Assembly: GCF_000155675.2 (NCBI RefSeq)
Contig: NC_020911.1
Span: 2,842,501 to 2,906,500, forward strand
Length of the DNA stretch: 64,000 nt
Direction of reading: 5' to 3'
Source: Octadecabacter antarcticus 307
GTDB lineage: Bacteria > Pseudomonadota > Alphaproteobacteria > Rhodobacterales > Rhodobacteraceae
A model generated the notes under the pieces. That model did not search any database. It was given only the letters and a program-made list of their open reading frames with translations, and was not told where the DNA came from. Of the stretch, positions 52,581-63,463 are shown piece after piece. A program made the translations under genes and the position numbers. How positions within the stretch are numbered: position 1 is the stretch's first letter; each line of letters starts with the position of its first letter.

Positions 52581-52814
52581 AACCGAGTATTGCTTACTGG
52601 CAATCCACCCTAAAAATGGTTGTGTTGAAAACAAGAATTTTTGCGGCAAGATAAGCCAAGGAGATTCACTATGGAAAAATCACGTTATTCAGAGGCGCAG
52701 ATTGTCTCAGTTTTGAAAGAAGCTGAGAGTGGTGTGCCTGTAACGGTGCTGTGCCGTATCCACGGAATGAGCAGTGTTGCGTTTTTTCAGGGGCGTTCAA
52801 AGTATGGGGGCATG

Positions 52815-52853
52815 CATTGCCAGCAGGCGATTGCGTAGCAATCTGCAGAGAGG
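52815..52853 (+). repeat. mini-element copy 1
   Basis: 39 nt inserted between the Met and Asp codons of IS3 OrfA (GGCATG and GACGCG). Stem GATTGC-gta-GCAATC. The left block reads CATTGCCAGCA and the right block AGAGAGG. Removing it restores the OrfA frame. Confidence 0.8.
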
Positions 52854-52984
52854 GACGCGTCACTCATTTCTGCGATGAAACAATTGCAGGCAGAGAATGC
52901 GCGTTTGAAACGTATGTATGCGGATGTGAGCATGCAAAATGCGCTGGTTTATGGAAGCGCTGGCAAAAATGGAATGAGGCCGTC

Positions 52985-53024
52985 CATTGCCCTGCAGGGT
53001 TATGGGTAGCATGATCCCGAGAGG
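52985..53024 (+). repeat. mini-element copy 2
   Basis: Left block CATTGCCCTGCA, hairpin GGG..ATG-ggt..CAT..CCC and right block CGAGAGG. It lies at the OrfA/OrfB border of the IS3 remnant. Confidence 0.75.
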
Positions 53025-53090
53025 GTTTCTGACGAGAGATGGCCCAACAAGCAGTCGCTGTGCGCGGTGTCAGCATTGCACTGGCATGCC

Positions 53091-53127
53091 CGCTGCCCGG
53101 CAGGGCATGTTTACATGCCTGAGAGGG
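53091..53127 (+). repeat. mini-element copy 3
   Basis: CGCTGCCCGGCA, then stem GGCATGT/ACATGCC, then TGAGAGGG. 37 nt inside OrfB of the IS3 remnant; removal rejoins CRAFT in frame. Confidence 0.8.
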
Positions 53128-53262
53128 GGCATTCACGATCTGCCAGCGGTGCTTTCGGTATGTGCCGCTGTTGGCTAACGAAAATGAAGAGATTGAAGAT
53201 TGGCTGATTGCTTTGACCAAGGCCCGTAAGAACTGGGGTTTTGGGCTGTCTTATCCATCGAC

Positions 53263-53274
53263 TGCCGGGCAGTG
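53263..53274. repeat. mini-element half copy (copy 4)
   Basis: Only the TGCCGGGCA block remains, exactly at the point where the IS3 transposase lost its middle section. Confidence 0.45.
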
Positions 53275-53358
53275 AATGAGTGGCTTGGGGTGAATATCTT
53301 TCACAGCATTCAGGAGGTACAAGATTACGCCACACAATGGTTGTGGACTTACAACAAT

Positions 53359-53395
53359 CCCTCTCGGGACATACTTCGTATGCCCTGCCGGGCCG
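53359..53395 (-). repeat. mini-element copy 5
   Basis: Inverted orientation: CCCTCTCG, stem CATAC-ttc-GTATG, then CTGCCGGGC. It lies at the junction between the IS3 remnant and the truncated IS200-type transposase. Confidence 0.8.
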
Positions 53396-53409
53396 TCAAC
53401 AACTTTCAG

Positions 53410-53751
53410 CTATAACTCCGAGAAATATCCACGGGCCCAAAACCGCCTTCCCCAATACCGTTTGCGCAACTCTGGGAACTCCATCTGAACCCGCCGCGAC
53501 GAGCGCCCTTTGATCCGCTGCATCACCTTGGACAGCGCGATCTGTGGCGGGACAGATATGAACATGTGGACGTGGTCACTTGCCAGAACACCCTTCATAA
53601 TATGCACGCCCATCTCGGCACAAGACTGTCGAATGATATCGCGGATCCGTTCGCGCATCGGCCCGCGCAAAACCTTATGTCGATATTTCGTCGCCCAAAC
53701 GACGTGATAACGGTGATAAAATCTGGTATGTGATCCTGTAGAATAGGCCAT
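53410..53751 (-). pseudogene. tnpA: truncated IS200/IS605-family Y1 transposase (TnpA)
   Basis: 113 residues of an HUH endonuclease-type transposase: FYHRYHVVWATKYRHKVL, the HUH motif in DHVHMF, and FWARGYFS. Family members have about 140-150 residues; the C-terminal helix that carries the catalytic Tyr is missing, the frame ending at SEL. The start ATG (53751) and GGAGAG are buried in a 27-bp hairpin. Not active as encoded. Confidence 0.88.
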
Positions 53752-53816
53752 GATCTCTCCTTCACATTTTGAAGCCTTACCCCAATCGGGGCTTCAAAAT
53801 GTGAAGGAGAGATCAT
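53750..53816 (-). promoter_or_regulatory. 27-bp stem sequestering the tnpA start
   Basis: Arms 53750-53776 and 53790-53816 are perfectly complementary around a 13-base loop. On the minus-strand transcript the second arm holds AAGGAGAG and most of the ATG, so translation would be blocked unless the stem is melted. IS200 is known to repress its transposase by such structure. Confidence 0.8.
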
Positions 53817-53837
53817 TAGAATTTCCGCTGAAGCGAA

Positions 53838-53852
53838 CCGGCTTAAAGCCGG
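53838..53852. repeat. IS200/IS605-type end hairpin
   Basis: CCGGCTT-A-AAGCCGG, a perfect 7-bp stem, lies just outside the tnpA gene where the left-end recognition hairpin of IS200/IS605 elements is expected. Confidence 0.55.
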
Positions 53853-54063
53853 CGGCTTATCTCCATTGGGGGCTTTGTTGCACAAAGCAGCACGAGGTCT
53901 GACTTCCCCTTACCCCTGATGGAGCTACGCTACGACAACGGTTCTGGGGATGCCAAGTGCGGTGAAGCCATTGAGTATCACTGCGCGGATTTGGATTTCC
54001 GCAACCTGCCGTTCGAAGTCGCGCGCTGCCAAGCTCTGACCAAGTAGTTTCATACAATGCATC

Positions 54064-54103
54064 CGCAGCCAGGCAGGGTATTGCGCAGCAATGCCCGAGA
54101 GGG
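54064..54103 (+). repeat. mini-element copy 6
   Basis: Stem GGGTATTGC-gca-GCAATGCCC between degenerate left block (CGCAGCCAGGCA) and GAGAGGG. It splits RVET from KMHCMK of the IS5 transposase. Confidence 0.8.
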
Positions 54104-54379
54104 TTTGTCTCAACACGACTCCTGCGGTGTTATCCGTTCAAGCGACGCCATTGATGAGCGCGGCCGAGATCCTTTGAGGACTGTACGGCGTCGTTTCGGG
54201 CTATGGCCCCCAGCGTATCCGGCTTCCATAGCTTGGCATTCTTGCGTGGCGGTATGACAGCACGGGCATTGCGGGCCGCAATTGCTTCATGACATTTGTG
54301 GGGTGACGGGCGTCTTGGAATTGATCCCACGGATCAGTTCAGCCCAGAACGGGCGACGCCCCGGGGCATATGCCCCATC

Positions 54380-54416
54380 CATTGCCCGGCAATGCATGTT
54401 TACATGCACGAGTGGG
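54380..54416 (+). repeat. mini-element copy 7
   Basis: 37 nt: CATTGCCCGGCA, stem GCATGT-tt-ACATGC, right block CGAGTGGG. Removal rejoins SVSA and DGAY of the IS5 transposase exactly. Confidence 0.85.
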
Positions 54417-54508
54417 CGCTGAAACGCTGCAGATCATCTGATCTGGTGCGATCTGATCGAGAAGGTTGGGCAACATGGACGGGTCCCCAATGCTGCTACT
54501 GATCATGT

Positions 54509-54548
54509 CCCTCTCGGCAGATTGCTTTGCAATCGCCTGACGGCAATG
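54509..54548 (-). repeat. mini-element copy 8
   Basis: Inverted: CCCTCTCGG, stem GATTGC-ttt-GCAATC, then CTGACGGCAATG. 40 nt after EIRAV of the IS5 transposase. Confidence 0.8.
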
Positions 54549-54582
54549 GACGGCGCGTATCTCCAACGTTTCTTCATCACCC

Positions 54583-54623
54583 CCCTCTCGGGACATTGCT
54601 GCGCAATGCCCTGCCGGGCAAGG
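54583..54623 (-). repeat. mini-element copy 9
   Basis: Inverted: CCCTCTCG, stem GGGACATTGC-tgc-GCAATGCCC, then TGCCGGGCAAGG. It follows KIHI of the IS5 transposase. Confidence 0.85.
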
Positions 54624-54662
54624 AATGTGGATCTTGCGCCACAACCGGCGTTTCGATCCGCT

Positions 54663-54702
54663 CTTTGCCCGGCAACACATGCTTGCATGTGTGAGAGGAG
54701 GG
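54663..54702 (+). repeat. mini-element copy 10
   Basis: CTTTGCCCGGCA, stem ACACATGC-tt-GCATGTGT, then GAGAGGAGGG (three extra bases in the right block). It lies between ARK and the following GGSKRR segment. Confidence 0.8.
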
Positions 54703-54719
54703 CTTGCGAGCGTTCCACT

Positions 54720-54760
54720 TATTGCCCGGCAGGGTTATGCGCAGCATGATCCCGAGAGGG
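54720..54760 (+). repeat. mini-element copy 11
   Basis: TATTGCCCGGCA, hairpin GGG..ATGC-gca-GCAT..CCC, then GAGAGGG. Same hairpin plan as copy 2. It splits the EGEGEWNA region of the IS5 transposase. Confidence 0.85.
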
Positions 54761-54773
54761 CACCTTCGCCCTC

Positions 54774-54815
54774 CACTGCCCGGCAAGCGCATCCGCAGGA
54801 TGCTGCCGATAGGGG
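54774..54815 (+). repeat. mini-element copy 12
   Basis: CACTGCCCGGCA, stem GCATCC-gca-GGATGC, then CGATAGGGG. It follows DSTGIK. Confidence 0.8.
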
Positions 54816-54834
54816 GCTTTGATGCCGTACTGTC

Positions 54835-54874
54835 CGTTGCCCGGCAAGGTATTGCGCAGCAATGCACGAGAGGG
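54835..54874 (+). repeat. mini-element copy 13
   Basis: 40 nt: CGTTGCCCGGCA, stem GTATTGC-gca-GCAATGC, then CGAGAGGG. It is inserted at CTGTC^GACA between LLV and DST of the IS5 transposase. Confidence 0.9.
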
Positions 54875-55108
54875 GACAAGGAGATTTAACGGGCCTTTTG
54901 ACCCTTGGTAGGGAATGGCAACCAACAGAGTTTTCTGACGACAACATAACGCGCTGAAATCTGGAGCCTCCCAGTCAAGGTAGATCAATTTCAACAGACT
55001 TTCCACAAAGCCTGTCGCCTGCCTCAAAGGCATTCCAAACAGCACTTTCAACGTAAGACAGGTTTGGATCGCCGCATCGCTGTAGCGTGGCTGACGGCCC
55101 CGTTTGCC

Positions 55109-55145
55109 CCCTCACGTCGCGGCAAAGCAGCGACTGCCGGGCAGT
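55109..55145 (-). repeat. mini-element copy 14
   Basis: Inverted, 37 nt: CCCTCACG, stem GTCGC..GC-aaa-GC..GCGAC, then TGCCGGGCAGT. Removal rejoins VPT and GKRGRQ of the IS5 transposase. Confidence 0.85.
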
Positions 55146-55340
55146 GGTCGGTACAGCTTTCCACGTGACCTCTGGGTTGAACCAAATAGTCAGAGACCCG
55201 CGCTGTTTCAGGGCCTTGTTGTACTCAGGCCAGTTCCTTGTGCGGTAAATCGGGGGGATAGGTTTGCTCATAAACACAAGCTACCATGCTGGATTCACAA
55301 CATGAATCCCAAATACATGACTATTTGTGCAACAAAGCCC

Positions 55341-55613
55341 ATACAAATCGTCAAACGTAAGCTGCTTGACTGGCTCTTTTTTCTTAGCTCGCAAGCGAAG
55401 GTCGTCGTACTTGTCCAAAGCGTACCGTTTCGCTTCTTCTCAATCCGTTTCGCCCGTGCTTTCTCGCACGTAAGTAACTTTATTTACATAAACGTCCTGC
55501 ATTTCCCTAACGTGTATGCGCACGTGATAAACGGGGCGCTTGGCATGTTGGCGATGAAACAGAATTACTTGTCCGTCTTTAAGCTCGAATTTGTTCAAGT
55601 AGCTTTCACTCAT
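55341..55613 (-). pseudogene. tyrosine recombinase/integrase N-terminal fragment
   Basis: Starts MSESYLNKFELKDGQVILFHR and continues RESTGETD. It then hits TGA at 55440-55442, with the frame continuing EEAKRYALDKYDDLRLRAKKK up to the IS5 end at 55340. This resembles the N-terminal SAM-like part of site-specific recombinases. The catalytic domain is absent; interruption by IS5 and the in-frame stop leave it dead. Confidence 0.55.
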
Positions 55614-55666
55614 AGCAGTACCGCCAGCATCATTTCCTCGTAAAACAACTGTAAAATCAGTATCTG

Positions 55667-55855
55667 TCAACGCCGGGCTAAAGCAAGTAGGTAGACGGCT
55701 AGCATCTGAAAAGCGCACGTCTCCTGCACCCAAGATACCACCAACCTGTCGTCTTCTTTTGGTGCAATGGCAGCTGTCTCACGAGTTCCGCCAAAGACAT
55801 GCGCCATGAAGGAAATCAAGGTGATGATGGCGACGATTAAGACAGGAATATTCAT
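55667..55855 (-). pseudogene. truncated membrane protein fragment
   Basis: The frame MNIPVLIVAIITLISFMAHVFGGTRETAAIAP then VQETCAFQMLAVYLLALA looks like the first two helices of a small four-helix membrane protein. It ends at a stop at 55667, where the integrase region begins. Probably the 5' part of a gene cut by integration or deletion. Family unnamed. Confidence 0.4.
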
Positions 55856-56007
55856 AGGTTCAGTTTCCATTTTTAGCTACAAAGGTGGGCTAAACCTACC
55901 GCCCCACCTTTACCATCCAATCTGCGAAACAAGGGCCCGAGGTTATCCAAGAACGTTCAAAAAGGAGCGTTTCAGGCATTTAAAACCTGAACACCGAAAG
56001 CACGATT

Positions 56008-56517
56008 TCACGCCTTAATGACCATCCAATACATGTTGGCGAGTGGCACCACGGTTGCCAAGGCTCCAAAAGAAAGCCATATTTTTCCGTACGGCCAGTA
56101 CCGCTCTGGAATCTCGTCGGTCACTGTAAATTTTTGCGACATGCGGGACTGGATAATCTGTATTGGGATCAAAACAACAACCCAGATTACTCCCGAAATT
56201 ATGAACAGCGTATACCCCCACCACAACCAACGCTGCGCATAAAGTTCCTCCATGATGTTCTCCTTCATATGGAAAACCATACCACATCCAGCAATCGCCA
56301 AAATGACCACTCCACCAAAGGTAAATACCATGTCCGTCAGAACGACCTGTCTTTGCGCAAATGCGATGACACGGTAATCACCTGTCCGGTCTGCCATCAC
56401 CCTCCACCACGCGGTGACAATGATATTCCCCATAAAAAGAATGATCCCGAACAGGTGCAGGATTTTTAGAGCATTATAATCAAGGTACCCTGCGATAATT
56501 CCACCAAATACGCTCAT
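56008..56517 (-). CDS. DUF2269-type integral membrane protein
   Basis: 169 residues with four membrane helices. Start MSVFGGIIAGYLDYNALKILHLFG, with a His in the first helix as in the DUF2269 family, and ending near YWMVIKA. It overlaps the upstream small gene by four bases (ATGA), so the two are translationally coupled. Function unknown. The pair is divergent from a TetR regulator that probably controls them. Confidence 0.8.
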   Translation of the reverse strand: MSVFGGIIAGYLDYNALKILHLFGIILFMGNIIVTAWWRVMADRTGDYRVIAFAQRQVVLTDMVFTFGGVVILAIAGCGMVFHMKENIMEELYAQRWLWWGYTLFIISGVIWVVVLIPIQIIQSRMSQKFTVTDEIPERYWPYGKIWLSFGALATVVPLANMYWMVIKA

Positions 56518-56738
56518 TCTTCGCCGTGCCCGTGCTGTGTGGCCGCGCGTGAGTTCAACCATCGGGAAATGGCCCCCTGCTTCCACATCCAGACACCAGA
56601 AAGTGCCAAAGCCGGAAAGGCCACCCATTGCGCGAGGCCCATGACGACAGCGGTATTTCCATAAAGTGCCCACCCGATTAAACCAGAGCCAATCAGGTGG
56701 AGTGTCCGCAACTGCGGCCTTTGTTTTATCGTTATCAT
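56514..56738 (-). CDS. 74-residue membrane protein
   Basis: Start MITIKQRPQLRTLHLIGSGLIG after AGAGGGAA. It has two hydrophobic segments (about residues 14-32 and 34-50) and a His-rich end (QHGHGEE). It is the first gene of the pair with the DUF2269 protein. Function unknown. Confidence 0.65.
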   Translation of the reverse strand: MITIKQRPQLRTLHLIGSGLIGWALYGNTAVVMGLAQWVAFPALALSGVWMWKQGAISRWLNSRAATQHGHGEE

Positions 56739-56793
56739 GTTATTCCCTCTTTTGCTTGCTAGGGTATGGACAGTGCGTCTCAAGAAGTGCACG

Positions 56794-56828
56794 TTGTAAA
56801 CATAAGCAGGATGTGAGCATTGTCAACA
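56794..56828. promoter_or_regulatory. imperfect inverted repeat between the TetR gene and its neighbours
   Basis: GTTGTAAACAT and ATTGTCAAC face each other across 15 bases in the 89-base divergent gap. A TetR operator is plausible, as TetR proteins often bind their own divergent promoter. Confidence 0.4.
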
Positions 56829-57376
56829 TGTCAAAACCCTATCACCATGGCGAATTGCGCAACGCGCTGATTGCAGCTGGCACGGCTGCGCTTGAAGAGA
56901 CCGGAAACGCCGATATTTCGTTGCGTGAAACTGCGCGGCGTGCCGGTGTCTCCCCCACTGCAACCTACCGGCACTTTGCCTCCAAAGAGACTCTGCTCGC
57001 CACCATCGCAGGCAACGGCTTCGTAGATCTTGGACAGCGGTTTGCCGAGGCTGAAGATGGTCTTGCTGGATTTGGCCGTGCCTATATCGGGTTTGCCCGC
57101 GACCGCCCTGCCATGTTCCAGCTCATGTTTGGCGGAGCTTATTCGATTGGCACATTAAGCGAGGGTGAGCAGAAGGTCGGGCATAATGCTTACGGCGTCT
57201 TGATCGACGCCGTTGCTAAACATGCAGAGCTGCCGCCTGACGACCCGAAGGTTCTCAGACGCGCTGTCCGCGTTTGGTCACTCGTGCATGGCTACGCGAT
57301 GCTGCTGTTGGACGACCGGTTGCCGGATGCTGCACAATCGGATGCATTTCTAACCGAAATGCTCAGTCAAAATTAA
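56828..57376 (+). CDS. TetR-family transcriptional regulator
   Basis: 182 residues. An N-terminal helix-turn-helix (about 10-56; ISLRETARRAGVSPTATYRHFASKETLL) is followed by a TetR_C_33-like ligand domain (FARDRPAMFQLMFGG). The start at 56828 directly follows the putative operator. Divergent from the DUF2269 pair, its likely target. Confidence 0.9.
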   Translation: MSKPYHHGELRNALIAAGTAALEETGNADISLRETARRAGVSPTATYRHFASKETLLATIAGNGFVDLGQRFAEAEDGLAGFGRAYIGFARDRPAMFQLMFGGAYSIGTLSEGEQKVGHNAYGVLIDAVAKHAELPPDDPKVLRRAVRVWSLVHGYAMLLLDDRLPDAAQSDAFLTEMLSQN

Positions 57377-57479
57377 GGCGCAGTAGTTTCAACTGATTTG
57401 AATGCTCTCGAAGCGTCTCCTATCCGCTAAATCAGGCTACTAGCTGTTCCATTCCGGATGATCACATTGAGGGCCGAAG

Positions 57480-57765
57480 CTTTACTTCTGGGCGTTCGCC
57501 CGCGACGATCGCTCCTGGAATGGACGGGAACCACCGGGCTTCGCCTTGACCTATGCGCCGGGGCGTGCGGAAAAATACGCACCCGGGTTGTTGCAGGGAT
57601 TTGGTAGCATCCTGAAAGTACCCTCTCGGTGATGCTGCGCAACACCTGTCAGATAATAAACGGCTATGCAGGGTACAACCGCGTGCTGGACCTGCGGGAT
57701 AATGCGCCGATCCAATTGGCGTATTACTGGGCGCATGCCCGTCGTAAACTTCATGGACTAAGCAG
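57480..57765 (+). pseudogene. IS66-family TnpC fragment
   Basis: The frames FALTYAPGRAEKYAPGLLQG and, after a degenerate mini-element, NGYAGYNRVLDLRDN and LAYYWAHARRKLH follow the central part of IS66 transposase (DGYAGYN..CWAHARRK). Neither end of the element is present. Confidence 0.75.
57620..57660 (-). repeat. mini-element copy 15 (degenerate)
   Basis: CCCTCTCGG followed by a weak ATGCTGCGCA core; the right part CTGTCAG is eroded. It separates SILKV from GYAGYN in the IS66 fragment. Confidence 0.5.
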
Positions 57766-57778
57766 AAGGGCATCGATC

Positions 57779-57808
57779 AACTGCTTTGCAATCAACTGTC
57801 AGGCAACG
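57779..57808 (-). repeat. mini-element copy 16 (partial)
   Basis: TGCTTTGCAATC core and GTCAGGCAACG, matching copy 8, with the outer left block lost. It sits where IS66 sequence changes to IS3 sequence. Confidence 0.5.
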
Positions 57809-58087
57809 GACAGCGGCCCAGAATACATCAGTGGGACCTTGATGACATGGGCCGAAAAACACGGTGTTCGGCTTGAACACATCCAGCCAGGCAAACCTCA
57901 GCAGAACGCCTATATCGAGCGATACAATCGCACCGTTCGTGGCGAATGGTTGAGCCAGTACATCTTTGAAACGATCGAGGAGGCCCAAAACCAGGCGACA
58001 GAATGGCTCTGGACTTACAACAATGAGAGACCCAACATGGGCATCGGCGGCATAACACCCGCAATGAAACTGAAAACAGCCGAGTGA
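57809..58087 (+). pseudogene. IS3-family OrfB C-terminal fragment
   Basis: DSGPEYISGTLMTWAEKHG, then PQQNAYIERYNRTVRGEWLS and LWTYNNERPNMGIGGITPAM. This is the DDE C-terminal half of an IS3-type integrase, complete to its stop. The upstream part is replaced by IS66 sequence, with a mini-element at the joint. Confidence 0.85.
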
Positions 58088-58463
58088 ATTCTACGGCTGA
58101 GCCCTATTAAAAATGGGGGAATTACCCACTGTTCTCCATCATTAGTGGAAACAAGGCTTCTGGCTCTGGGGCGGAGTACCGAGTCCCGACCTCAATCCCC
58201 CTCGCTTGTTACCACCGTAAAACCCTATTCGATCGCCACCCCGGATACCCGCTGCGAGGCGCTCCCGAACTGCGAACAACCAGTGTGTAGGGCAGGATTT
58301 AGAAACGTCTGAAACGTCGCGCTCTGCGCCCCCCGCGACGGCTAGGAAACGCTGGGAAGGACCCGAAGCCAGAACGCCTTGGAAACATTCTAGTTCTCTA
58401 CTGGAAACAGACAACCGGACAATCGGGGGACGCTTGGCATCCCGTGACACCGCGACACCTTGA

Positions 58464-58492
58464 GACCGGGACCGGGACCGGGACCGGGACCG
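58464..58492. repeat. hexanucleotide tandem repeat GACCGG
   Basis: Almost five perfect tandem copies of GACCGG. It lies in a stretch (58088-58530) where I see no convincing gene. Confidence 0.9.
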
Positions 58493-58530
58493 CGTGGCAC
58501 CAGGTCGCGCGCCATTAGACAACCGCAAAC

Positions 58531-58743
58531 ATGCGACGCCACCACGACTCAATCGCCACGCGATTGGGTACGGGAGGCATCCGCCCACCCGAGCGTGTGA
58601 GATCGCGTTTGGCGCTGACCCTTATTGAACGTAAGGAGATATCGAGGGATATTGTGCGCCTGCAGCGAGGGTCCGCCATGAGTTCAGATCGCGTATTTTC
58701 TGCAGTGCAGCGAATGGCCGATTGTACGGCGGGATCAGATTAG
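58531..58743 (+). pseudogene. IS30-family transposase N-terminal fragment
   Basis: GGIRPPERVRSRLALTLIERKEISRDI matches the N-terminus of IS30-type transposases (GGIRP...ALTLAEREEISRG). The helix-turn-helix and DDE parts that should follow are missing. Confidence 0.55.
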
Positions 58744-58945
58744 TCGGGGGTGTTTTAGATAGACACCAATGTATTCAGGCAGCGGATTGTTATATCTGTT
58801 TTGGTGATTGATTAGAAATGAGTGCAGGTCCAATCGTAGCGTTCAGACAATTTCTTAGAAATCTGTGGCGCGCATTCAGCCACCTGACGAAAATAGTTCG
58901 TGAACCCGCTTGTATACCTGCACTCGAATTGTTTAAGTCAGTATC
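58744..58945. other. intergenic stretch before the riboswitch
   Basis: No gene is recognised in these 200 bases. A minus-strand open frame covers them (VRWLNARHRFLRNCLNATIG), but it lacks a ribosome binding site and shares no family features I know. The promoter of the riboswitch operon must lie here. Confidence 0.4.
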
Positions 58946-59036
58946 ACCACAGGGGTGTCGCATAATGCTGCGGCTGAGATTTGGGCGACAAGCCCACGGA
59001 CCCTCAAAGCTGATCTGGATAATGCCAGCGTAGCAA
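58946..59036 (+). promoter_or_regulatory. TPP riboswitch (THI element)
   Basis: The conserved blocks appear in order: GGGGTGTC, GGCTGAGA (58972-58979), ACGGACCCTC and CTGATCTGGATAATGCCAGC, followed by GTAGCAAGGAGG. The last part overlaps the ribosome binding site of the next gene, ATG 59048, so thiamine pyrophosphate probably blocks translation initiation. Confidence 0.95.
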
Positions 59037-59047
59037 GGAGGACTGAT

Positions 59048-59656
59048 ATGTTTGCAGGCGCACAAATTTCACTTTATCCGATGACCGACGGGTTCGTTGA
59101 TGTCATTTTGACATCGCTGGTCGCGCTTGATCCTTGGCGAGACCGGTTGCGGATTGAGACCGATGATATTTCGACGCTGATTGTCGGTCCACCCGAGGTT
59201 TTGTTTCCCGCATTGCGCGATCTTTACGTGGCTGCCGCCAAATCAGGGCAGCACGTGGTTTTACGCGCCACCCTATCGCGTGGATGTCCGGGAGAGCCGG
59301 ATGACCCGATCTGCCTGACGAGCGCGCTGGCCAACCCATCCGAGCCGCTGGCGTCACGGCAAGAGGCGTCACTTGCTGCTTTGGCCGCGACCCGTGAATT
59401 GGGTCAGGCAGCAGACGCGCAATTTTCGCTGTATGTGATGGGTGAGGGCGATCATATGGCTGAAATCATGGGCTGCATCGACTTTCTAAAGCAAAGCGGA
59501 ACGTTTGACCGGTCCAAGAATTTCTGCACGCGCCTGACGGGTGATGCGGGGCCCGTGTTCGGGACGCTGCAACAGGCGTTTTGCCAGTTTGGCCCGCCAG
59601 ATGGACATGTCACAATCGATCTAACGGTGTCCGCCAACAGCCCCTCCAAGCGCTGA
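59048..59656 (+). CDS. YkoF-family thiamine/HMP-binding protein
   Basis: 202 residues with tandem ferredoxin-like halves: GAQISLYPMTDGFVDVIL near the start and AQFSLYVMGEGDHMAEIMGCIDF in the second half. YkoF proteins bind thiamine or its hydroxymethylpyrimidine moiety and sit with ABC importers. The start follows AAGGAGG, which the TPP riboswitch can occlude. Five bases separate it from the permease gene. Confidence 0.9.
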   Translation: MFAGAQISLYPMTDGFVDVILTSLVALDPWRDRLRIETDDISTLIVGPPEVLFPALRDLYVAAAKSGQHVVLRATLSRGCPGEPDDPICLTSALANPSEPLASRQEASLAALAATRELGQAADAQFSLYVMGEGDHMAEIMGCIDFLKQSGTFDRSKNFCTRLTGDAGPVFGTLQQAFCQFGPPDGHVTIDLTVSANSPSKR

Positions 59657-59660
59657 TCTG

Positions 59661-60449
59661 ATGCAAAATTTCTTACCTCACCCCACGGGCGGAGGTCTGG
59701 CACGCGGCATCCCTGCCGTCTTAAGTGTGGCCAGCGCCTTCGTTATTTGGGAAATCTACGTCCGTGTGTCAGGCATTTCCCCTCTGATGCTGCCTGCACC
59801 GTCAAGGGTACTGGGACAGATAGTGCTGAACCGCGCGCTTTTGTGGGACAACACCCTGCCCACGATCACGGCCACACTAGCTGGCTTCACTTTGTCGCTC
59901 GCGGTGGCTTTTGTGCTGTCGATTGTGCTAGATTTCATGCCATGCGTGCGGCGGGCGCTGTTTCCGATTTTTGTGGTCAGCCAAACCTTGCCACTGGTCG
60001 CCATCGCTCCGCTTGTGGTGTTGTGGTTCGGGTTTGATCTTACACCCAAGATTTTACTGGTCGCGCTTGTGACGTTTTTTCCGATGTTGGTGGCACTGGT
60101 TGACGGGTATGAATCGACAGACCCCGAAATAGAAGACTTGCTGCGGTCCATGGGGGCGTCGCGCCGTGTTGTGTTTCGAACAGCGCGCCTACCGTCCGCG
60201 ATGCCTTACTTTTTCGCGGGGTTGCGTATCTCGATAACCTACGCCGTTGTTGCGGCGATCTTTGCTGAATATGTCGGTGCGCGTGCGGGTCTGGGGATCG
60301 TGATCCTGAACGCCAAGAATAGCTTTCGCCCTGATCTCGTGCTGGCCGCTGTCGTGATCAGTTCGGCGCTGACGTTGGTATTGTTTGCGATCACGGCCAC
60401 GCTGCAACGCGTCGTCTTACGCTGGCGAAACGTCGGTGATGGTCGATGA
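59661..60449 (+). CDS. thiX: ABC transporter permease (ThiX-like)
   Basis: 262 residues, about six membrane helices, of the SsuC/TauC-type permease family. The EAA loop reads DLLRSMGASRRVVFRTARLPSAMPYFFAG. In this riboswitch-controlled context it imports a thiamine pyrimidine precursor (formylaminopyrimidine or HMP). It overlaps the ATPase gene by four bases. Confidence 0.9.
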   Translation: MQNFLPHPTGGGLARGIPAVLSVASAFVIWEIYVRVSGISPLMLPAPSRVLGQIVLNRALLWDNTLPTITATLAGFTLSLAVAFVLSIVLDFMPCVRRALFPIFVVSQTLPLVAIAPLVVLWFGFDLTPKILLVALVTFFPMLVALVDGYESTDPEIEDLLRSMGASRRVVFRTARLPSAMPYFFAGLRISITYAVVAAIFAEYVGARAGLGIVILNAKNSFRPDLVLAAVVISSALTLVLFAITATLQRVVLRWRNVGDGR

Positions 60450-61201
60450 GCATTTTGAACATGCAAGGTGTTGGCGTCACGTTGGGCAACACTGAGGTCC
60501 TTGCCGATATTTCCATGTATCTGGCGCAGGGTGAGTTTGTTTCCATTCTTGCCCCATCGGGGGCAGGGAAATCCACGATCTTTCGGCTGCTCACAGGTGC
60601 GCTGCGCCATGATCGCGGCACGATCACCTGCGATGATCGCCTGCTTGATCAAAACACGCCGAACTTTGCTTTCATGCCGCAGCGCGACGCCTTAATGCCA
60701 TGGCGGCGCATCTTGGGTAATCTGACCTTGGGGTTGGAGGTTCAGGGCATGGCGCGCAAAGACGCGCGCGCCCGCGTTGTGCCGTTGCTTTCTGATTTCG
60801 GCTTGAAGGGTTTTGAGCAACACTACCCCGCCCAGCTATCGGGTGGCATGCGCCAGCGCGCGGCATTGTTACGTACGATCATCCAAACACGGCCCGTCCA
60901 GCTGTTGGATGAACCGTTCGGCGCACTTGATGCGCTGACCCGAACGCAAATGCAGACGTGGTTTGAGGAACGCTGGCGCGCTGCCCGCTGGACCACCCTG
61001 CTCGTTACCCACGATGTACGCGAGGCTGTGGCATTGTCCGATCGGATCTATGTTTTGTCGCGCCGCCCGGCCCGTGTGATCGCCGAAGTCGCCGTGCCTG
61101 CGGCGCGGCCCCGTCTTGGGCAGCCCGTCCACGCGGATGCCCATGCACTAGAGGCGCATCTGCTCGAAATCCTACTTAACCAAACTGGAGATACACCATG
61201 A
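60446..61201 (+). CDS. thiZ: ABC transporter ATPase (ThiZ-like)
   Basis: 251 residues. Walker A APSGAGKST (residues 36-44), signature LSGGMRQRAALLR and Walker B LLDEPFGALD, then the H-loop in VTHDVREAV. It powers the permease encoded upstream and overlaps the binding-protein gene by four bases. Confidence 0.93.
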   Translation: MSILNMQGVGVTLGNTEVLADISMYLAQGEFVSILAPSGAGKSTIFRLLTGALRHDRGTITCDDRLLDQNTPNFAFMPQRDALMPWRRILGNLTLGLEVQGMARKDARARVVPLLSDFGLKGFEQHYPAQLSGGMRQRAALLRTIIQTRPVQLLDEPFGALDALTRTQMQTWFEERWRAARWTTLLVTHDVREAVALSDRIYVLSRRPARVIAEVAVPAARPRLGQPVHADAHALEAHLLEILLNQTGDTP

Positions 61202-62181
61202 AACATTTACTTTCTGCCGCCTTCCTCTGCGCAGCGTTGCCTGTCGCGGCCCAGGAGACCGTCAGCGTTGCGCTGGATTGGACGCCAAACACCAATCATG
61301 TAGGCTTGTATGTGGCGCAGTCGAAAGGCTGGTTTGACGAGGCCGGATTGGATGTCGATGTTTTACCATACACCGATACCTCGTCGGGTGTCTTGGTGGC
61401 GACGGGCGTCGCAGAATTTGGTATCTTAAGCGCTGTCGGATTTCACAGTCAGCGCGCGACAGGTGCGGATATGACTGTAGTGATGGCCGTTGTGCAGCAT
61501 GAAACTGGGCGGTTGGTGTTCAATGGCGAACGCGACGATATCCAACGCCCAGCCGATCTGGACAGTAAGATATACGCAGGATTTGGCAGTGCTTGGGAAG
61601 AGGCGCTCATTTCTACGATCATCCGCAATGATGGTGGCAAAGGTACGTTTGATACGGTCACACTAGGCACTTCGGCCTATGAGGCACTGGCCAATGGCCG
61701 CGTTGATTTCACGCTTGAAGTCAGCACATGGGAAGGCGTGAATTCGGCTTTGCTGGACCGTCCACAACGGGCCTTTCGATATGCGGATTACGGTGTTCCA
61801 GACCAGCATACGACTTTCCTGGGTGGTAACGGGACTTGGTTGGCCGCTAACCCAGAAACAGCACGCGCATTCGTTCAGGCGGCACAGCGTGGCTATGAAT
61901 ACGCGGCCAAAAATCCAGCAGATGCCGCTGAAATCCTGATCGCTGAGACGGCGGGAATGTTGTCGAGACCAGAGCTGGTGCGTGCCTCAATGGAGGCTTT
62001 GGTTACGGGTGGCTATCTTCAAGACCCCGGCGAGCCTGCTGGGCTGATCGACGACGAAATGTTCGCCAACATCACGGAGTTTTTGTTTGAGGCGGGCATT
62101 CTGCGTGACGAAGACGGCACACCGCTTACAACAATGCCGGATGTCTCGAGCTGGTATACAAACGACTATCTGGCGCGTTGA
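61198..62181 (+). CDS. thiY: NMT1/THI5-like substrate-binding protein (ThiY-like)
   Basis: 327 residues with a signal peptide ending AAQ (MKHLLSAAFLCAALPVAA). The mature start VSVALDWTPNTNHVGLYVAQ is the hallmark of NMT1/THI5 pyrimidine-binding proteins. It captures the pyrimidine precursor in the periplasm for the permease and ATPase encoded upstream. Last gene of the operon; IS481 sequence starts soon after. Confidence 0.92.
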   Translation: MKHLLSAAFLCAALPVAAQETVSVALDWTPNTNHVGLYVAQSKGWFDEAGLDVDVLPYTDTSSGVLVATGVAEFGILSAVGFHSQRATGADMTVVMAVVQHETGRLVFNGERDDIQRPADLDSKIYAGFGSAWEEALISTIIRNDGGKGTFDTVTLGTSAYEALANGRVDFTLEVSTWEGVNSALLDRPQRAFRYADYGVPDQHTTFLGGNGTWLAANPETARAFVQAAQRGYEYAAKNPADAAEILIAETAGMLSRPELVRASMEALVTGGYLQDPGEPAGLIDDEMFANITEFLFEAGILRDEDGTPLTTMPDVSSWYTNDYLAR

Positions 62182-62592
62182 TAGCGGCATCATGACTGTG
62201 GGTTGGGGTTTGAATCGGTGCGATCGGGTCAAAATCCAACCCCTAGGTTTTTGATCCCCTGGTTTGATGGTGCGATCTATTCTTTGGAATGGAAGGAAGC
62301 ATTATGGGACAAATACGTCATGGCTGCGCCACGACTACGCACGCCATCAGAGCAACAATACAGCGATCGCAAGCTACGACCGCAGCTTTGAGTCGAGAAC
62401 TTGGTATAAATGTCAAAACGGTCTCCAAATGGCGCAAGCGCAAAACTGTAGAAGACCGCAAGACTGGCCCCACGGACCCCAGTTCGACCGTTCTCAGCGC
62501 GGGTGAAGAGGCGATGATCGTCTCTTTTCGACGTCATACGCTCCTACCGCTGGATGATTGTCTTTATGCCTTGCAGCCAACTATCCCACATC

Positions 62593-62632
62593 CATTGCCC
62601 GGCAGTTGCTTGCGGAGCAAGCAATGAGAGGG
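62593..62632 (+). repeat. mini-element copy 17
   Basis: 40 nt: CATTGCCCGGCA, stem TTGCTTGC-gga-GCAAGCAA, then TGAGAGGG. It splits codon CGG of the IS481 transposase. Confidence 0.92.
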
Positions 62633-62808
62633 GGACGCGATCTTCCCTGCATCGTTGTTTGCAACGGCATGGGATATCCCGACTGCCAGATATGGAGGGC
62701 GACAAGCCGAAACGACAAAAGTTCAAACGCTATCCGATCGGATATTTTCATATCGACATTGCAGAGTTGCGCACCAACGAAGGAAAACTTTATCTCTTTG
62801 TTGCCATT

Positions 62809-62848
62809 CATTGCCCGGCAGTGAATCGCAAAGCGATGTCACGAGAGG
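62809..62848 (+). repeat. mini-element copy 18
   Basis: 40 nt: CATTGCCCGGCA, stem GTGAATCGC-aaa-GCGATGTCAC, then GAGAGG. It is inserted exactly between ATT and GAC codons of the IS481 transposase. Confidence 0.92.
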
Positions 62849-63463
62849 GACCGAACCAGCAAGTTTGCCGTGGCACGGCTTGTAGAAAAAGCAAATCGCA
62901 AGACGGCCTGGGAGTTCCTGGAGGCTGTGCTGGAAGCGGTGCCATACAAGATCCACACAATTCTGACGGACAATGGCATTCAATTTTGTGAGCAACCACG
63001 TAACCGGAACACACCATATTCACGGCCTATGCGGTTCGACATGATCTGCGATGCCAACAGGATTGAGCACCGGCTGACCAAGCCCAACCATCCATGGACC
63101 AATGGCCAGGTTGAGCGGATGAACCGCACGATCAAGGACGCAACAGTCAAGCGGTATCACTATGACAAGCATGATCAGCTGCACACCCATCTCGCAGACT
63201 TCATAGCGGCCTACAATTTTGCTCGAAGGCTGAAGACGCTCAACGGCCTGACGCCGTACGAATACATCTGCAAGATAGGGACTTCAGAACCAGAAAGATT
63301 CATCGTTAATCCGATCCAACAGATGCCGGGACCGAACACCTAGCTGTCTATTTAGTGTTGTTGATGTTTTCGTCGGGTTTTGATTATTTATCCTATCTGA
63401 AGTGGTCCGGCAAAACTGGACAGCGTGCTAAGATGTATCCAACACGAACGAATGGATACGAGA

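Follow-up and report, generated by a model that had tools for sequence, protein, structure and literature searches.

The stretch analysed here, called the window, is 64,000 nucleotides (nt) of the chromosome of Octadecabacter antarcticus 307 (NC_020911.1, positions 2,842,501 to 2,906,500). Its last 11.4 kb hold insertion sequences (IS) of IS3, IS200, IS5, IS66/IS3 and IS481 type, the IS3, IS5 and IS66 labels being a reading of translations combined with homology to a panel of transposase stretches, and in these genes lie the copies of a short palindromic repeat, hereafter the hairpin element. A covariance model was built from 15 hand-picked window copies, which match it by construction; these 15 clear copies (52813-62849) all have E ≤ 6.1e-7, and a single IS5-like gene (~53850-55300) holds nine of them, six on the plus and three on the minus strand (Table 1). 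The model also gave eight matches of lower score, with E values up to 5: three resemble decayed copies in the IS area, three (54359, 53258 and 62794; E 0.047-0.97) overlap clear or decayed copies on the opposite strand, and two (48771, E 0.021; 34782, E 0.19) fall within positions 1-52600 and look like chance. The 12 copies given by an independent strict scan all lie in the last 11.4 kb, none in the first 52.6 kb, the block-shuffled expectation being 1.8 per 284 kb. Neither the model nor the scan found anything convincing in the first 52.6 kb, in agreement with a first-pass annotation, made from the letters alone, that had seen no copies among the ordinary genes; its count of at least 17 copies in the window becomes 15 clear and probably three decayed ones.

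Table 1. Hairpin elements and transposase genes in the last part of the window
Feature	Position	Strand	Basis and remarks
Hairpin element in IS3-like gene	52813..52854	+	Covariance model, E 3.1e-11
Hairpin element in IS3-like gene	52983..53025	+	Covariance model; empty homologous site, 85.5% identity
Hairpin element in IS3-like gene	53089..53128	+	Covariance model
Decayed copy, left block alone	53254..53276	-	Covariance model, E 0.011
Hairpin element, broken 3' edge of IS3-like gene	53359..53399	-	Covariance model
IS200-type Y1 transposase gene, no element inside	53410..53751	-	PF01797, E 5.8e-37
Hairpin element in IS5-like gene (gene on -)	54062..54103	+	Covariance model; homologue comparison
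Hairpin element in IS5-like gene	54378..54416	+	Covariance model
Hairpin element in IS5-like gene	54509..54550	-	Covariance model
Hairpin element in IS5-like gene	54583..54625	-	Covariance model, top score, E 6.9e-16
Hairpin element in IS5-like gene	54661..54700	+	Covariance model
Hairpin element in IS5-like gene	54718..54760	+	Covariance model
Hairpin element in IS5-like gene	54772..54814	+	Covariance model
Hairpin element in IS5-like gene	54833..54875	+	Covariance model
Hairpin element in IS5-like gene	55109..55148	-	Covariance model; same site as in 22-copy IS5-like family (flanks compared)
Probable decayed copy among IS66/IS3 fragments	57621..57660	-	Covariance model, E 0.078
Probable decayed copy among IS66/IS3 fragments	57771..57810	-	Covariance model, E 0.44
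Hairpin element in IS481-like transposase gene, sense	62591..62633	+	Covariance model
Hairpin element in IS481-like transposase gene, sense	62807..62849	+	Covariance model; 40-nt net insertion vs plasmid copy
IS481-like transposase, 3' part	62870..63343	+	rve_3, rve_2, rve

Conserved ends and a maintained fold

The element consists of a 12-nt left block, CAYTGCCCGGCA, a hairpin, and the right block GAGAGGG, mostly 37-43 nt in all, and is best read as a non-autonomous mobile hairpin with conserved ends. The two conserved blocks had been recognised at first pass, with letters that are corrected here: over 111 distinct sites the consensus is C-R-T-C in the flank, then C-R-Y-T-G-C-C-C-G-G-C-A, the hairpin and G-A-G-A-G-G-G, often with further G after it. 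The hairpins, of ~7-9 bp, fall mostly into size classes of 18-24 nt, the larger classes having one unpaired base, mostly T, in the 3' arm. Covariation was measured on 47 distinct hairpins of the 22-nt class, chosen by their termini only and excluding loci from a viral collection; in this class nine pairs surround a 3-nt loop and the unpaired 3'-arm base is T in 37 of 47. At eight pairs, 91.5% of the cells are paired; 2000 shuffles of the arms among copies gave 63% on average and never more than 72%. Pair 4-18, for example, occurs as GC (18), CG (14), TA (6) and TG (2). The stem arms covary and the fold is maintained despite changing letters, as the first reading had supposed. Rfam has no family for the element, the TPP riboswitch alone scoring above the gathering score. 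Apparently nested copies, one hairpin element within another, were observed at C2:2054910-2054943, C2:902516-902580 and similar places.

Hosts in the O. antarcticus genome

Genome-wide (4.81-Mb chromosome and 62.9-kb plasmid), the pattern TGCCCGGCAN{12,26}GAGAGG has 297 exact matches and its reverse 0 which, together with the clear window copies, confirms that the family is real; many of these copies are inherited within multi-copy IS and are not separate insertions. The published genome description gives 4.8 Mb for the chromosome, 63 kb for the plasmid and 626 as the number of genes and pseudogenes associated with transposons, and the words 'palindrom' and 'repeat' are absent from its main text (PMC3646047).

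Of the 142 distinct contexts in this genome, 117 touch transposase homology when the elements are masked, 24 more lie within 700 nt of it and 1 has none. The panel used comprises 42 stretches, of which 7 count as transposases on our reading only, without a Pfam scan; contexts with short flanks were dropped (<250 nt in one set of contexts, <150 nt for named genomes in the panel comparison). An element-blind sample of 272.6 kb (nine chromosome pieces from 3.1-4.7 Mb, 40 kb of plasmid and window 1-52600) contained nine elements, all in IS copies: seven in scored intervals and two in a known IS copy, within its first gene. Transposase homology covered only 3.4% of this sample, as scored with a panel from which some IS are missing. 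Moreover, 29 of 40 open stretches at elements, selected on length or coding score, match Pfam at E ≤ 0.01 (17/20 from this genome, 12/20 from relatives), and for all 29 the best family is a transposase, an IS-associated or a recombinase family, 4 of the 29 falling below the curated cut-off. The hosts include IS3, IS5/IS4, IS110, IS91 with tyrosine recombinase, and IS21; three of the 29 match through the HTH_21 domain only, a domain of IS3 transposases. IS66- and IS256-type hosts occur in named genomes. In this genome the element is nearly totally confined to transposase genes of many IS families, so that the confinement claimed at first pass nearly stands here (141 of 142 contexts touch transposase homology or have it within 700 nt) and is not absolute elsewhere, where a few copies lie outside such genes. 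Both orientations occur, as had been stated: among the 94 orientable of 164 contexts, a rough tblastn-based count gave 34 sense and 60 antisense.

Precise insertion without target duplication

Comparison of occupied with empty homologous IS copies, the check proposed at first pass, was possible for 53 contexts with an empty homologue of ≥75% identity. The net insertion equals the hairpin plus 19 nt exactly in 32 of the 53 and is off by 1-8 bases in the rest, a few of these alignments being visibly poor. Since empty homologous sites exist, the segments are insertions. Recent movement is shown by three occupied/empty pairs within this genome, whose identity outside the element is 98.6% over 495 nt, 98.4% over 500 nt and 98.0% over 347 nt; in the cleanest, GTGTC^AGGC becomes GTGTC[element]AGGC with no duplication and no loss, and the remaining two have small additional junction differences. 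The target logo over the 111 sites places C-R-T-C directly before the element. Insertion is precise, does not duplicate the target and occurs just after a C-R-T-C-like sequence. One could still regard the segments as fixed internal parts of certain IS, since entire multi-copy IS carry them; the first-pass annotation had named intact IS already containing the segments as evidence against its claim, and this is partly seen in an IS of 22 copies that inherits its insert. As a general account this reading is refuted by the empty sites and recent pairs, near-identical elements also occur at many places outside that multi-copy IS, and we regard it as very improbable.

Maintenance of the reading frame was suggested by many protein alignments spanning a 13-residue insert, a count that favours in-frame cases, and was rejected on the nucleotide count: net lengths give remainders of 0, 1 and 2 on division by three in 14, 20 and 19 of the 53 contexts, and the frame is therefore not kept.

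Fate of the interrupted IS

To follow the interrupted IS, copies of each were searched for and the best 40 of 162-180 candidates scored, close copies being assumed to rank first. A 1093-bp IS5-like element is present in 22 full copies (L003:638-1730 and 21 more) that share one insert and whose identity rounds to 100%; its closest insert-free relatives among the matches scored are 79% identical. An IS481-like element has 8 full copies (99-100%), each with two inserts, its closest insert-free copy among the matches scored being on the plasmid at 77%; a third IS family also has 8 full copies (99-100%) and two inserts. Since all near-identical full copies carry inserts, the interrupted IS have transposed. 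Single-nucleotide changes, counted as silent (S) or non-silent (N), were S 12, N 19 in the frameshifted IS481-like family (expected S fraction 0.26), where one nonsense change is common to three places, and S 2, N 8 in a second frameshifted family, that is S 14/41 pooled compared with 26% silent expected without constraint. Two further families with other inserts gave S 2/N 2 and S 1/N 0. In the 22-copy IS5-like element, by our own reading, one frame is open through the insert except for a single UGA codon, and leaky readthrough of it could supply a little transposase.

Distribution in other genomes

The element occurs across Rhodobacteraceae and is rare outside. At least one match was found in 171 of 394 genomes of this family, the reversed pattern giving 0 or 1 per genome and strand, although part of the 171 is chance, as 7 of the 30 loci from relatives that were looked at first have no hairpin; matches number only a handful in most of the genomes concerned and 17-36 in some. 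Within the genus, 11 of 19 genomes match. Of 240 genomes drawn from the class, 13 have matches, and outside the family hairpin-bearing copies were recognised by eye in two only (G603 and G525). A scan of named genomes gave at least 119 loci, at least 90 with a loose hairpin; among the matches listed, 58 loose-hairpin loci carry titles, and by these all but five are Rhodobacterales, the five being Vreelandella, Labrenzia, a Rhodospirillales, an alphaproteobacterial assembly and one chance hit. Of 75 strict sites in named genomes, 45 touch transposase homology, 11 more are near it and 19 have none with this small panel; two of the 19 (L257, L353) are IS256-type by Pfam and one (L296) has HTH domains only. 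A Pfam scan of 90 stretches, counted per family and not per site with 25 of 51 families listed, included amidase, pyruvate kinase and TPR matches that are chance pattern hits judging by their hairpins. Elements lie at the edge of an ornithine cyclodeaminase gene (L333) and of a phage tail-type gene (L386).

From the viral collection, 19 of 80 stretches examined (80 of 120) pass the loose stem test, many by chance. Well-formed elements are present at L386:3028-3062, with a DUF2460 tail-type domain following after ~140 nt, and at L412:8881-8913, within a long open reading frame. Such contigs are possible routes of spread.

Relation to known palindromic repeats

The open-access literature gave no description of the family by topic, and text matches to its terminal sequences were unrelated by title. 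That no described family has this layout holds to this extent; on the other hand, three known families share parts of it. Repetitive extragenic palindromes (REPs; GTAG- and CGTC-tagged; Di Nocera 2013) are described, in the sections cited, as mainly extragenic 20-40 bp hairpins with stems variable but paired and a short conserved tag, the CGTC type being mainly alphaproteobacterial and listed there with no known transposase (PMC3733652). Our element is likewise a short hairpin with conserved pairing. Unlike REPs, it has no GTAG or CGTC tag at the stem foot, the C-R-T-C belonging to the target flank and standing 12 nt ahead of the hairpin; its copies are not extragenic, nearly all those of this genome being in or at transposase genes; no REP-associated tyrosine transposase (RAYT, a Y1 enzyme) gene flanked by copies was found among 24 Y1_Tnp matches; and it has the 12-nt 5' block and the GAGAGGG 3' block and inserts without target duplication.

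The pneumococcal repeat unit RUP is given, in the parts of the source used, as 107 bp with terminal inverted repeats and TA targets, linked to IS630-Spn1 and mostly intergenic, and section 8 reports that it hits more than six IS families, inactivating transposase genes (PMC2229807). The hairpin element shares with RUP that it is a small non-autonomous repeat in transposase genes of several IS families; it differs in being ~40 nt with one hairpin and in that no parent IS was found, unpaired termini having been looked for in the examined loci. Unlike RUP and other miniature inverted-repeat transposable elements, it makes no target site duplication, either in the cleanest pair or in the 53 contexts. 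Rickettsia palindromic elements (RPEs), according to the same source, are palindromes of 105-146 bp that are found joined in frame to protein-coding genes, of which many are conserved (PMC2229807). Ours are also palindromes inside protein genes of alphaproteobacteria, but they ignore the frame, their hosts are transposases and they are much shorter. As REP, RPE and RUP each fail at least one defining feature tested here, we set the family apart from them, and it is best read as new REP/RPE-like hairpin elements with an extreme bias to transposase genes. In this genome it departs from the usual extragenic pattern of bacterial palindromic repeats: nearly all of its copies are in genes that belong to other mobile elements, from many unrelated IS families, and the element recurs across a bacterial family. 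Parasitism of one mobile element on another is here recorded in nature, and the family can serve to test whether short hairpins restrain transposons.

How the elements may move and persist

Substrates of HUH/Y1 single-strand transposases have a hairpin with an unpaired T, a short 5' target and no target duplication. Our element is like the substrates of IS200/IS605-type and RAYT enzymes in these features, and differs from them in having no Y1 gene of its own and a single hairpin. Because its precise insertion without duplication, short fixed 5' target, unpaired-T hairpin and small size resemble such substrates, the family is probably moved by an HUH/Y1-type enzyme. A single-strand-specific enzyme of this kind would read the hairpin and the short target and insert the element after a C-R-T-C-like site. 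Insertions would persist mainly in IS, since IS genes are dispensable and copied, and broken IS would keep spreading because related intact transposases would act in trans on their ends; we infer such trans mobilisation, in preference to splicing or bypass of the inserts, from the nearly neutral changes in the two frameshifted families. The element would gain copies by hitchhiking, and autonomous IS would be damped as a by-product. To this combined explanation, in which an HUH/Y1-type enzyme moves hairpin elements that persist in dispensable, copied IS mobilised in trans, we give a probability of roughly 55%. The near-identical occupied/empty pairs define the reaction product, and therefore the mobilising enzyme can be sought directly.

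Several findings pull the other way. The transposase panel was drawn partly from the same loci, which biases contexts towards touching it, and dispensability alone leaves the near absence from non-IS intergenic DNA unexplained. None of the 24 Y1_Tnp matches of the genome (L229-L252) is bounded by bare element termini, in a test that covered Y1 enzymes, and the local IS200 group has, by eye, a TTSAY-type target and not CRTC. In the family labelled 236k silent changes are in excess, with S 14 and N 18 where an S fraction of 0.25 is expected. Four IS5-like relatives that share the insertion site of the 22-copy IS have ratios of non-silent to silent substitution (dN/dS) of 0.13-0.17 against it. 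If that insert is ancestral, survival of some function despite it would fit; separate insertions into one target, or gene conversion acting locally, would produce this picture as well. The same dN/dS values favour the idea that the inserts, as mini-introns or bypass elements, are cut out of the RNA or passed over by ribosomes, so that interrupted transposases stay functional; insert-bearing IS multiply without insert-free siblings among the matches scored, and in the first five families examined all inserts were sense. We think this improbable, given the antisense majority, the nearly neutral frameshifted families, the nonsense codon of the IS481-like family, shared by copies that moved too, and the lack, in our own reading, of matching take-off and landing codons at two IS481-like sites.

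A dedicated enzyme could instead put short hairpins selectively into transposase genes, for example by acting on single-stranded or circular IS intermediates, as a parasite of many IS families or as a host brake on them. The near absence outside IS in this genome, though the hosts (IS3, IS5, IS481, IS110, IS66, IS256, IS91, IS21 and others) are unrelated, and the result of the element-blind sample speak for such steering. However, the three IS with counted copies all bear inserts and are yet well multiplied, so any brake is leaky; beyond CRTC there is no common target, and some copies in other genomes are near ordinary or phage genes. We hold selective insertion to be possible but doubtful. 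Slightly less credible still are passive REP- or RPE-like repeats that insert at random everywhere and are lost selectively except in dead IS DNA. The lack of frame preference and the general dispensability of IS agree with this, but intergenic DNA should then hold many copies, and a single one of the 142 sites is without transposase homology within 700 nt. Moreover, G406, probably O. arcticus, has 49 matches, about one sixth of the 297 found here, and about twice the transposon genes in the published table (PMC3646047, used in part). Element load therefore does not simply track IS load in this sole relative whose IS content was compared.

Two candidate sources, in addition, were considered. 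IS200 was dismissed as the mobiliser, the element termini being absent at its ends and its target apparently different. A longer parent element was given little weight, unpaired termini being few in the loci examined (5 distinct left termini without a right terminus within 36 nt, more distant partners not having been searched for). All 24 Y1 (IS200-type) matches lack a recognisable element inside, and neighbouring IS often hold whole ones; the lack could point towards the mobiliser or mean no more than that these IS are recent.

Other features of the window

A perfect 27-bp inverted repeat with a 13-nt loop (53750-53816) adjoins the IS200 gene. The window also holds the TPP riboswitch (58941-59054, plus strand; Rfam RF00059), and the genes behind it (58955-62181), a YkoF-domain gene, an ABC permease, an ATPase and an NMT1/THI5-like protein, are likely a thiamine-precursor transport operon.

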